A stretch of DNA of 40,625 nucleotides from Desulfobulbaceae bacterium (GTDB taxonomy: Bacteria; Desulfobacterota; Desulfobulbia; Desulfobulbales; Desulfobulbaceae). Positions 28,149 through 33,107 of the stretch are shown piece by piece. Position 1 is the stretch's first letter; each line of letters opens with the position of its first letter. Location: the NCBI GenBank assembly GCA_029865005.1, contig JAOTSI010000002.1, forward strand, positions 1 to 40,625, given 5' to 3'. The notes under the pieces are model-generated. The model did not search any database and was not told the origin of the DNA. It saw only the letters and a program-made list of their open reading frames with translations. Position numbers and translations under genes: made by a program.

Positions 28149-29156
28149 ATGACTGATTCCACAAAAAAATCGCCACCCTTTTTTGAAGCCCTGCTTCACA
28201 CGGATAACGGCAAACCTTGCGCTATTTTTGCCGATGAACCGGAACAAGTACTTTTAGAACTGGAAAATACTGATCTGGATCATTTTGACAACTTACGGAT
28301 AATCCAAGTTCCACTTGAGCTATCGGTTGTTAACGAAGGAATCAATAAAACCCTGAGCGCCCTTGCCGGGCTTGCTCAAACTCTTCAGCCAGAATGGGAA
28401 TCAAACACAAGCGCTACCGATGAGTCCGTCAATCATCGTTGGCGTAAACGGGGAATCGAGTTGTGCCAACGCGGGAGACCTCCTTTACCGAGCGGATTCA
28501 GTGAAGCGCAACAAGCTCGCCAACTCACTCTATGCCTCAATCAGGGCCCCTTGGTCATCTTGCTTTTTCCCCAACAAGACGAACCAACAGAAACCCAACT
28601 CTACAGCCTTGCCAGGGTAAGTGAATGGCTAGCCATCCAAACCAAAAGTAAAATCGGCCTTCTCCTGCGGGCAAAACATCTCAACCATCCGGCCCTGGAT
28701 TCCATATCCTACGGGGCCGTAACGCTCGCCGCCCCCCGAGTGGATCCAAAAAAAGAAATTCCATCCACCCCGGCGGCCTGGATTTTTCCCTATCTAGGCA
28801 AACCCCACCCCTGCAGTCCGGGAGAACAAATACTGGCAAAGCTCATCCAGGCGGACAACACTATCAGCACCCTATTTCATTATAACTATCGGATTCAAGG
28901 ATGTCGAGGCAGTAACTATATCTGTGATCTTGTATGGCCCTCCGGCCAACTGGTTATAGAAATCGACGGATATGGTTTTCACTCCAGCCAACCGGTATTT
29001 TGCGCCGACAGGAAACGAGATCGGGAACTACTGCTCACCGGTTACCGGGTTATGCGTCTGCCCCATAATGAAGTTATCAACAACCCACAACAGGCTATTA
29101 CTGAAATTAAAGATATGGTCCGCTTCATCCGGAGCCAAATCTCTTCACCTCAATAA
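28149..29156 (+). CDS. Protein with C-terminal DUF559/Vsr-like endonuclease domain
   Basis: C-terminus YRIQGCRGSNYICDLVWPSGQLVIEIDGYGFHSS...DRKRDRELLLTGYRVMRLPHNEVI matches the DUF559/very-short-patch-repair nuclease pattern. The N-terminal ~230 aa are unassigned. Confidence 0.85.
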   Translation: MTDSTKKSPPFFEALLHTDNGKPCAIFADEPEQVLLELENTDLDHFDNLRIIQVPLELSVVNEGINKTLSALAGLAQTLQPEWESNTSATDESVNHRWRKRGIELCQRGRPPLPSGFSEAQQARQLTLCLNQGPLVILLFPQQDEPTETQLYSLARVSEWLAIQTKSKIGLLLRAKHLNHPALDSISYGAVTLAAPRVDPKKEIPSTPAAWIFPYLGKPHPCSPGEQILAKLIQADNTISTLFHYNYRIQGCRGSNYICDLVWPSGQLVIEIDGYGFHSSQPVFCADRKRDRELLLTGYRVMRLPHNEVINNPQQAITEIKDMVRFIRSQISSPQ

Positions 29157-29180
29157 AAAACTCCCAAGGAGATATAACTC

Positions 29181-29834
29181 ATGAGCTTTCAACCAGACTC
29201 TTTGCAAACCCTTTATCTTTGGTCCATACTTTTCAAACATGAGGGAACTGCTTTTTTAAAAGATTTAAAACCGAAACTAGGCAATGCAAAAGGACTCACC
29301 GGGGCCAAAAGACGCAATCAGCTCGTAAAAGAGGGACTATTGGATGAAGAAAAAATCGGTAACAAAATACAATTAACCCTCACTGATTCTGGCTGGGCCT
29401 GGGCTCAAAACAACATGACCAGTGAAATCTCAAGCAAATCACCATCAAGCGGACCAGTCCTCCAAGCCCTATTGACCCGCCTAGGATCGTTTATGGATCA
29501 TAATGAGATATCCTTAGCCGAACTTTTTATTGAACGGACGCAGGAGGATTCACCCCTACAAAATAATCAGGAAATAGATTTAAAAATCCGAATTCGCGAT
29601 TATTGGCAAAAATCAACGGGCGGTCGACGGGATTTACAGGTTCGCCTTACTGACCTACGAGAAGAACTTAACGATATTAACCGACAGCTACTGGATTCAA
29701 CAATTACTGAAATGCACAGCACTGGAAAACTAATTTTATCACCTCTTGAAGATCCTCGAGATGTAACAGATATAGAAAGAAAAGCAGCGATTAGTATTGC
29801 AGGTGAGGAAAACCACATATTCTTTATGGAGTAG
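29181..29834 (+). CDS. Small winged-helix-like accessory protein
   Basis: N-terminal LYLWSILFKHEGTAFLKDLKPKLGNAKGLTGAKRRNQLVKEGLLDEEKIGNKIQLTLTDSGWAWA reads like a winged helix. RBS AAGGAGATATAACTC ATG. Confidence 0.7.
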   Translation: MSFQPDSLQTLYLWSILFKHEGTAFLKDLKPKLGNAKGLTGAKRRNQLVKEGLLDEEKIGNKIQLTLTDSGWAWAQNNMTSEISSKSPSSGPVLQALLTRLGSFMDHNEISLAELFIERTQEDSPLQNNQEIDLKIRIRDYWQKSTGGRRDLQVRLTDLREELNDINRQLLDSTITEMHSTGKLILSPLEDPRDVTDIERKAAISIAGEENHIFFME

Positions 29835-29837
29835 CAG

Positions 29838-32800
29838 ATGACCACAGAATTTTTACAAACCCTTAAAAAAACAAATTTTGATTGGACGCTACGAGTCGAT
29901 AATGTTTGGCATAAACCGCTCTGCAACGTCCCATCTTTACATCAAAACATCAAAACACGGATTCTTGACGAATTAGAAATTTTAAAAGATAGACCGGAGT
30001 ACTCACCCCTCTCTTTACCTATCACCGGTCGAGCTGGTGCCGGTAAAACTCATCTTCTTACTGATCTCAGGCAGCAGGCCCTTGAGCAGGGAGCCAATTT
30101 CGTACTCATTGACATGACTGATGTGGATAATTTTTGGGAAACGGTTCGACAAGGGTTTATCACATCCATACACAAAACATCCAGGACAGGGCAATTACAG
30201 TACATTTATCTATTGGATTATTTTTTTAATCACTATTTGGGTCATAAGAAAATTGCAAACCCCACTGAACAATTTGCTGATTTTCCGCTTGATAAACAGC
30301 TAAATTTTATTAACACCGTACTGCAAAAACTCGGCAAAGAATACCCCATTGAATACAGAAAACATAGAGACACCCTTAAAGCCTTATTTCTTTTTGCAAG
30401 CAATGATAATGAAACTTGCGAGGCCGCTTATAGCTGGCTAAACGGTGGCGATATTGATACAAATGAACAACAAGTCCTTACCATTCGGAGCAGTTCCGGT
30501 GATGCAAAGATGGTTATTTCCGCTTTAAGCTGGTTATTCAGCCTGGCAGGTCCCACGCTCCTCGCCTTTGACCAGTTGGACGCCATAGTCAATGAACATC
30601 ATACCGCCGCAGGTGAAGATGACGACCCAGAGCAATTAAGCAACGAACAACGCGTATCCCTCTCGATAATAGAGGGAATCAGCGGTGGTTTCATGGGAAT
30701 ATGGGACAAACTACAGCGCACCCAGATAGTCCTCTCCTGCCTGACCAAAACATGGGAGATTCTACTCAACCGCGGCCTTCAATCTGCCGCTGATCGATTT
30801 AGGCCAGCTTTCATGTTAAAATCGTTAACAGATCAAGAGATTGCCAGAGATATAATTTATCAACGGATGGACGAATCCTATGAAAAATCCGGAGCTACCC
30901 CTCCCTATCGAGGATACCCCTTCTCACCTGAATCGTTTGACAGGGCTGCGGGGCTCACCCCACGGCAGATTTTGAAAGCATGTGACCAACATAAAGAAAT
31001 ATGTCTAGCCGAAAATAAGGTTACTAACTTTCAAGGCTTTAACGGCATAATAATAAAACCACCCATTATTGATCCGATAATTATCGCTAAAGTTCAACAA
31101 CGTTTTGAAGAACTACATCAAAAAGCCAATTCGCAAACATTAAAGAACAAGCTCACTGATAACGATTTCATGGTGGGCATGCTGCAAAGCGCCTGTCGCT
31201 GTTTACTACTCGAACAAGAGCTGCCGGATGAGGTGGATGGTATCGTTGATCAAGAGTTTTCCTCCAGCAAAACATATGAGACCCTGCACAGCCGTGTTCG
31301 GCTCATTTACCACAACGATAATGACAGGGAACGTCACTACTCTTTCCGGGCCCTCCAAACCCGAAATGCCCGCGCCTTTCAGGTTCGGCTTCAAGCCGCC
31401 ATTGTTGCATCAGGCATTAACCCAAACCTACCCTTCCGCCGCTTAGTTATTTTACGCACGACCCCAATTCCAGGCGGCAAGGTAACTGCAGAAAAGATGG
31501 ATAGCTTAATTAGCGCAGGCGGCGTAACCCACTGCCCAACCAATGATGAACTTCGTGATCTCTATGCCATTTACCATTTGGAAATAGAAAACCCGGACGG
31601 TTTTGAGAGTTGGTTGAAAAAAAATAAGCCGATGCGAGAACTGCCGATTTTCCATCAGGCCAGATTGTCGCGCAAACGCGATCCCCAGTCGGATAACGAA
31701 ACGGATCAAGAAAACACCGCAGCAAATATTGACGAGATAGAGAAAAACGATAAGCAAGCTAAGACACCTACGACTCCCAAACCTGGCATTAACGATGCAG
31801 TTAAAGAACCTAAGGACCAAAGCCCTGAACCAAGACAACAACAACCTGGAGAGATTCTCCTTGGCCGTCGTCTCATTAATAAAACAAACGGTGAAACAAT
31901 CACCCTACCGCTCTCGGACCTCACCAGACATACCGTTATTTTTGCTGGCTCCGGGTCTGGCAAAACAGTTCTCATTCGTCGTCTGGTGGAAGAAGCGGCC
32001 TTAGCCGGAATACCTTCTCTGGTCTTGGACGGTGCCAATGATCTGTCTCAACTTGGAACTCCCTGGCCTGAAACACCAGATGAATGGTCGGAGTCGGATA
32101 AAGAACAGGCGAGCCGCTACCATGAACAGGTCGAAACCATTGTCTGGACTCCTGGTCGCGAAAAAGGCAACCCCCTTATTTTAAATCCAATCCCAGATCT
32201 CAGCGCAGTCATGGATGATCCGGACGAGCTCAATCTGGCTATTAGTATGACCAGCCAAGGTTTACGACAAATCGTTGCACCGGGTAGCCCCACCTCCGTT
32301 CGTAATAAAAACAAAATAGGGCTTCTTTCAAGTTCGTTACGCTTCTTCACCAAGCAAAAGATGAGTACTTTAGATGATCTTATGGATCTACTTTCCGACC
32401 TGCCTCCAGATGCAAGCGGCGGAATAGACAATGCAGAGAAACTAGCTCGGGAAATGGCCAGCTTACTACGCGCGGAAACTCAAACGAATACACTTCTAAG
32501 CCAGAGCGGCACGGCGCTGGACCCAAACATCCTCTTCGGTAACGACGACAAAACCCGAATCTCGGTAATCAACCTTATCGGCCTACCGGGCCTGATAGTG
32601 CAGCAACAATTTATCAGCCAATTGGCAATGACTCTATTTACTTGGATAAAGGCCAACCCCGCTAAAAACAAATATGGTATTCGCGGATTACTAGTGATCG
32701 ATGAGGCTAAAGATTTTGTCCCATCAAACGGAACCCCTTCCAGCAAAGAGCCTATCCTTCGCCTTGCAGCACAAGCACGCAAATATGGTCTTGGACTCAT

Positions 32801-33107
32801 TCTGGCAAGCCAAGGTCCCAAGAGTATCGATCATAATATTGTCGCTAACTGCACCACTCAAATATACGGTAAAACCAATTCACCAACCGCCCTGAAAACC
32901 GTGCAAGATATGCTACAAGATAAAGGGGGATCCGGTAAGGACGTTGCCCGCCTAAAAATAGGTCAATTCTTTCTAACAAATGAGAAACACAACGTTCCCA
33001 TCAAAATCCAAACACCTCTATGCCTATCGCACCACCCGAGCACCCCGCCGGAAGAAAACAGCGTTTTGGCATCAGCACAGAAAAGCAGAGACCTATTGAA
33101 AGAATAA
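29838..33107 (+). CDS. Dual-ATPase protein: AAA/NTPase domain plus HerA/FtsK-type (DUF87-like) ATPase domain
   Basis: Walker A 1 ITGRAGAGKTHLL with TLLAFDQLDAIV; Walker A 2 HTVIFAGSGSGKTVLIRRLVEEAALAGIPSLVLDGANDLSQLG with GLLVIDEAKDFVPS and RKYGLGLILASQGPKSIDHNIVANCTTQIYGK. Starts 3 bp after the previous stop. Confidence 0.9.
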   Translation: MTTEFLQTLKKTNFDWTLRVDNVWHKPLCNVPSLHQNIKTRILDELEILKDRPEYSPLSLPITGRAGAGKTHLLTDLRQQALEQGANFVLIDMTDVDNFWETVRQGFITSIHKTSRTGQLQYIYLLDYFFNHYLGHKKIANPTEQFADFPLDKQLNFINTVLQKLGKEYPIEYRKHRDTLKALFLFASNDNETCEAAYSWLNGGDIDTNEQQVLTIRSSSGDAKMVISALSWLFSLAGPTLLAFDQLDAIVNEHHTAAGEDDDPEQLSNEQRVSLSIIEGISGGFMGIWDKLQRTQIVLSCLTKTWEILLNRGLQSAADRFRPAFMLKSLTDQEIARDIIYQRMDESYEKSGATPPYRGYPFSPESFDRAAGLTPRQILKACDQHKEICLAENKVTNFQGFNGIIIKPPIIDPIIIAKVQQRFEELHQKANSQTLKNKLTDNDFMVGMLQSACRCLLLEQELPDEVDGIVDQEFSSSKTYETLHSRVRLIYHNDNDRERHYSFRALQTRNARAFQVRLQAAIVASGINPNLPFRRLVILRTTPIPGGKVTAEKMDSLISAGGVTHCPTNDELRDLYAIYHLEIENPDGFESWLKKNKPMRELPIFHQARLSRKRDPQSDNETDQENTAANIDEIEKNDKQAKTPTTPKPGINDAVKEPKDQSPEPRQQQPGEILLGRRLINKTNGETITLPLSDLTRHTVIFAGSGSGKTVLIRRLVEEAALAGIPSLVLDGANDLSQLGTPWPETPDEWSESDKEQASRYHEQVETIVWTPGREKGNPLILNPIPDLSAVMDDPDELNLAISMTSQGLRQIVAPGSPTSVRNKNKIGLLSSSLRFFTKQKMSTLDDLMDLLSDLPPDASGGIDNAEKLAREMASLLRAETQTNTLLSQSGTALDPNILFGNDDKTRISVINLIGLPGLIVQQQFISQLAMTLFTWIKANPAKNKYGIRGLLVIDEAKDFVPSNGTPSSKEPILRLAAQARKYGLGLILASQGPKSIDHNIVANCTTQIYGKTNSPTALKTVQDMLQDKGGSGKDVARLKIGQFFLTNEKHNVPIKIQTPLCLSHHPSTPPEENSVLASAQKSRDLLKE

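Follow-up and report, generated by a model that had tools for sequence, protein, structure and literature searches.

A conserved winged-helix and Orc-HerA gene pair with exchangeable partners, a candidate anti-invader module in a Desulfobulbaceae bacterium

Three adjacent genes, here called A, B and C, occupy part of a 40,625-nucleotide stretch of Desulfobulbaceae DNA (contig JAOTSI010000002.1; hereafter the window) and recur together in distant bacteria, where B-C forms the fixed core; of the several partners exchanged beside it, A is the most frequent. On balance we think it rather probable that A-B-C is a patchily distributed anti-invader DNA-processing machine built on the B-C core and its exchangeable partner, whose proteins, we infer, would form a complex, translocate and cut DNA, select targets and protect against phages or plasmids. 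The three plus-strand reading frames (Table 1) fill positions 28149-33107 with gaps of only 24 bp (A-B) and 3 bp (B-C), and their sizes and spacing are exactly those first described. The neighbouring genes in the window encode, by Pfam, an FHA protein, a Ser/Thr kinase, PEP carboxykinase and a rhomboid protease, together with a 423-aa protein that has no Pfam match. The flanks are of the housekeeping kind. The view of the preliminary description that a self-contained module is set among unrelated genes is supported. Base composition is uninformative here, the GC content of the module (0.41-0.49) overlapping that of neighbouring genes, and an insertion boundary is not demonstrable: the nearest relative of the adjacent pckA (80% identical, genome G066) shares no gene order at this place.

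Table 1. Positions of the three genes and their domains and motifs in the window
Feature	Position	Strand	Description	Basis
Gene A	28149..29156	+	335 aa; N-terminal part of unknown fold (~1-215), C-terminal DUF559/Vsr-like nuclease domain	ORF, Pfam, profile
A, nuclease domain, residues ~215-335	28791..29153	+		Pfam, 47-homologue alignment
Gene B	29181..29834	+	217 aa; predicted winged-helix protein, second small C-terminal domain	ORF, model, fold search
B, predicted winged-helix domain, residues ~7-77	29199..29411	+		model, fold search
Gene C	29838..33107	+	1089 aa; predicted Orc-like AAA ATPase, central domain, HerA/DUF87 translocase	
C, predicted Orc/Cdc6-type AAA ATPase domain, residues 1-391	29838..31010	+		AAA_22/AAA_16 matches, invariant residues
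C, first Walker A, residues 64-71	30027..30050	+	GRAGAGKT	sequence
C, central domain, residues 436-600	31143..31637	+	possible inactive REase from topology	DSSP of model
C, HerA/FtsK-type translocase domain, residues 669-1089	31842..33104	+	four-helix insert at 795-883	
C, second Walker A, residues 704-710	31947..31967	+	GSGSGKT	sequence

The window C sequence alone retrieved no genome matches as a query, and an alignment of four homologues was then used successfully. The GTDB species genomes, scanned by profile, yielded at least 335 relatives of C, the best 80 of which were kept; together with three loci from a plasmid collection and the window they make up a set of 84 loci, biased towards close relatives of the query, that spans Alpha- and Deltaproteobacteria and Actinomycetota. 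B directly precedes C at all 84 loci, its stop codon mostly overlapping the start codon of C; A directly precedes B at 50 of them, never more than 24 bp away and often overlapping. Identity between C of the window and its relatives is only 30-39%, and at this distance the maintenance of gene order and motifs reflects conservation and not chance. Full-length C is also recovered by tblastn in Methylobacterium, Nonomuraea and Tsukamurella records, and the annotated gene order in Tsukamurella reads DUF559, hypothetical, DUF87. The A-B-C order therefore recurs in other phyla and is not a chance neighbourhood; co-occurrence across genomes, the check proposed in the preliminary description, is strong.

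The 34 loci that lack A show what may stand in its place. Four of them (two from Amycolatopsis, one each from Nonomuraea and Umezawaea) carry a DUF4365/PDC-M02A gene and PDC-M02B, together the PADLOC candidate system PDC-M02AB, 3-41 bp before B, and in three (Umezawaea, Actinoplanes and Nucisporomicrobium) C is followed at 14-22 bp by an AIPR/AbiU gene; these links are few, at 4 and 3 of 84 loci. At two more, B is preceded by a gene for a protein of 708-730 aa with a P-loop in its sequence, and the remaining 25 have no recognisable partner. On a FastTree phylogeny of C, the partner labels require 10 changes, compared with about 31 in shuffles; the DUF559 label accounts for 9 changes, at least 6 of which are forced by well-supported branches, while long branches leave the position of the window itself unsure. 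A full-length A elsewhere in the genome was found in just 2 of 19 carriers of A-less loci, and three loci from the phylum Desulfobacterota are likewise devoid of A. The exchange of partners and the general absence of A from these genomes lead us to treat B-C as the fixed unit and the nuclease as its usual but exchangeable companion. The partnerless loci, the scarcity of A elsewhere in most such genomes tested and the three Desulfobacterota loci would also fit a B-C pair with a function of its own, for instance to block or extrude DNA or to guard its ends, with A, AbiU and PDC-M02AB as mere accessory neighbours. We consider this quite unlikely, given that the close or overlapping spacing of A and B is typical of coupled translation and that the same place is repeatedly refilled by nuclease-type genes.

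Several other genes lie near A-less loci. Those encoding DUF7159, reductase and macro domain proteins beside the mycobacterial loci were judged to be ordinary neighbours and not partners. Three Micromonosporaceae loci (L088, L095 and L098) have a divergently oriented gene for a 1300-aa WD40-repeat protein 230-700 bp upstream of B. A Rhodococcus contig (L062:610-9579) contains tandem modules, A-B-C followed by B-C, and its second C is nearly identical to the C of a different Rhodococcus, where the copy includes A.

The nuclease domain of A had been described as apparently intact, and conservation bears this out. Residues 245-324 match Pfam DUF559 (E 3.4e-9), which we take to be a Vsr-like restriction fold, and a profile of A matches the solved 'Endonuclease-Like Protein' 3hrl (E 1.1e-12). 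Eight residues of catalytic type, E226, D260, E271, D273, H278, D287, R290 and D291, do not vary across 47 aligned homologues. The product of B is predicted by AlphaFold (pLDDT 90.9) to consist of a winged helix and a second small domain; its best fold matches in the PDB are winged helices of the ArsR/MarR type, with weak scores (E ~0.03-0.1). The earlier assignment of B as winged-helix-like thus agrees with the model and, more weakly, with the fold matches.

Both Walker A sites reported for C, one of them in a HerA/FtsK-like domain, are kept in 66 homologues, with G64, G67, G69, K70, T71 and H72 invariant in the first and G704, G706, G708, K709 and T710 in the second. The AAA domain further displays invariant D245/D248 and R320 in the same homologues; its residues 60-115 match Pfam AAA_22 (E 1.8e-9), and AAA_16 matches as well. 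The DUF87/HerA match begins at residue 687 (E 1.5e-9). The structure model of C, for which the plasmid-collection loci were left out of the alignment, reaches a pLDDT of 88.5 and has a disordered linker (617-661) before the HerA domain. It matches HerA of the HerA-NurA, SIR2-HerA and DUF4297-HerA complexes in the PDB at E values of 1e-10 to 1e-13; the nearest solved structures are those of HerA subunits from complexes with a nuclease or NADase, of which several act against phages. Between the two ATPase domains, residues 442-539 are modelled in the order alpha-beta-beta-beta-alpha-beta (DSSP), the topology of restriction-endonuclease folds, from which an inactive REase is possible. The conserved residues of this central domain include no D...(D/E)xK site, and its sequence matches neither Pfam restriction families nor the DUF559 domain. 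Two loci from the phylum of the window depart from this architecture: in C of L130:9891-12677 the HerA part is reduced and its Walker A changed, and at L133:7298-11825 the HerA part of C is missing altogether and A seemingly has two nuclease-like halves.

Carriage of the module is patchy. Full-length C is present in one of 97 family and order relatives of the window, namely its own genome. B occurs in 4 of 297 Desulfobacterota-phylum genomes (~1%; one genome has two loci), and carriers number 4 of 298 in Actinomycetota (~1%, centre genome included) and 16 of 61 among Mycobacterium-type genomes (26%); the phylum searches scored few candidates per genome, and the phylum counts may be too low. 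About half of the window's family (within G002-G053, e.g. L002-L015) encodes a protein of ~810 aa with 25-31% identity to C; the match is confined to the HerA domain, and these proteins were set aside as a different HerA family. Copies in the methylobacterial group mostly lie in different places, 123 of 153 locus pairs having no common flanking homologue, whereas mycobacterial B-C copies are syntenic within species groups, which looks like stable inheritance. In Tsukamurella, the annotation places A-B-C between rplN and rpsQ, within the cluster of ribosomal-protein genes, and copies from Rhodococcus and Kitasatospora also have ribosomal-protein flanks, which suggests a shared insertion site; this setting applies to L018 and L062 and, judging by flanks, to L069 and L071.

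A machine for DNA-end processing or repair on the model of HerA-NurA, in which the pump feeds broken ends to A and the benefit is repair and not defence, would be in keeping with the housekeeping neighbours, with the mycobacterial synteny and with the HerA of HerA-NurA being the top fold match of C. It nonetheless seems unlikely to us: the carriage is patchy, loci without the nuclease occur, some with defence-type genes in its stead, and no NurA domain is detected by Pfam scans in A, B, C or the flanks in the window. We also weighed the remnant of an integrated mobile element, in the form of a module for DNA transfer, replication or partition that would combine an Orc-like initiator, a TrwB/HerA-like pump and a partition-type winged helix. 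TrwB is indeed among the fold matches of C, B is weakly similar to the partition protein AspA and has TubR among its fold matches, and copies are found on a Methylobacterium megaplasmid and in a record labelled as a Tsukamurella plasmid. Flank scans, however, revealed no gene family for relaxase, integrase or replication that recurs beside the module, 50,697 phage records contain no match to it, and attached nucleases from several families would be unexpected in such an element, making this origin very unlikely.

Defence-island association, a test set beforehand, was not found as a general rule at 24 loci or in the flanks of the window: the 135 flanking proteins at these loci are mostly metabolic or ribosomal, and few match defence models. 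PADLOC matches in the flanks of the window are of a generic kinase type, and kinase matches to PD-T4-6 in flanks were dismissed as cross-hits of the same generic sort. One module has a gene for a Cas5-6 fusion (Cas56g) among its nearest neighbours. The defence reading accordingly draws on the parts of the module, its patchy carriage and the exchange with AbiU and PDC-M02AB, not on a defence-island rule; the housekeeping flanks, the partnerless loci (25/84), the small number of PDC-M02 and AbiU links and the mycobacterial synteny count against it. If A-B-C is the anti-invader machine we favour, B would bind DNA and/or regulate the operon through its winged helix, helping to choose or grip DNA, the Orc-like AAA domain of C would assemble on DNA and load or regulate, the HerA domain would pump double-stranded DNA, and A would cut the DNA delivered by B-C. 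More tentatively, B-C could be a general immune chassis that finds and pumps invader DNA and drives the DUF559 nuclease, PDC-M02AB or AbiU, with nuclease-free versions acting alone; we hold this broader version to be possible but doubtful.

Should the anti-invader reading be right, the operon would be a version of the predicted Orc-HerA capture machines condensed into three genes. With clear catalytic residues spread over three parts that can be separated, and with effectors exchanged naturally, the role of a HerA pump in immunity would become directly testable. A clear definition would also be gained for a group, unnamed by PADLOC (2023 models), whose members occur in Methylobacterium, Rhodococcus and soil mycobacteria. 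We know of no phage or plasmid phenotype of A-B-C, and found no experimental study of it in open-licence full texts on HerA or DUF87 and defence.

Among known systems, SIR2-HerA and DUF4297-HerA, which are among the top structural matches of C, likewise pair a HerA pump with an effector. Here, by contrast, HerA is fused to an AAA domain, an Orc-like ATPase and a winged-helix protein are added, and Pfam and PADLOC scans detect no SIR2 or DUF4297 effector in A, B or C. HerA-NurA is also a HerA pump with a nuclease, but the nuclease of the present module is DUF559 and not NurA, and the extra ATPase, the predicted winged helix and the patchy distribution set it apart. DndFGH has a HerA/FtsK domain in common with C, seen as a weak DndH match over residues 577-735, and PADLOC finds no DndF or DndG in A, B, C or the flanking proteins. 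The mad8 profile of MADS matches C with 101.7 bits, again confined to the HerA domain, and no other Mad components are present in the operon. BREX/BRC (PMC12839542) share the Orc/Cdc6 ATPase and, in BRC, HerA/FtsK; unlike these, the module adjoins no methyltransferase or BrxC-type gene, and Pfam and PADLOC detect no PglZ in the operon or ten flanking proteins.

The closest counterpart is the class of 'HerA/FtsK capture systems' outlined computationally by Rakesh, Aravind and Krishnan in 2024 (PMC10853773), an account repeated in a 2026 paper (PMC12839542). As described in the former, these are mobile neighbourhoods of an Orc/CDC6 ATPase, an active REase from one of two families, HerA/FtsK and a wHTH in varied arrangements, the Orc/CDC6 ATPase having an inactive REase placed behind its AAA core, and they are proposed to intercept invader DNA. 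The module had been called undescribed, which holds in that no model in PADLOC (2023 models), Pfam or NCBIfam covers the A-B-C set, but not for its general class, which that paper already outlines. All four components appear in one neighbourhood in the window: C carries a HerA/FtsK translocase (DUF87 and PDB fold matches) and, as its motif pattern and Pfam matches indicate, an Orc/CDC6-family AAA ATPase; A probably supplies the active REase, to judge from DUF559 and its invariant residues; and B, by model and fold matches, would be the wHTH. An inactive REase after the AAA domain may also be shared, if the modelled topology of C is read correctly. The differences are that AAA and HerA are fused in C with the wHTH as a separate gene, that the nuclease is DUF559/Vsr-like, a family not named in the main text of the paper, and that this nuclease may be missing or give way to AbiU or PDC-M02AB. 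A-B-C is therefore best placed as a variant within the computationally predicted Orc/CDC6 HerA/FtsK capture class, in which the exact set may already be catalogued.
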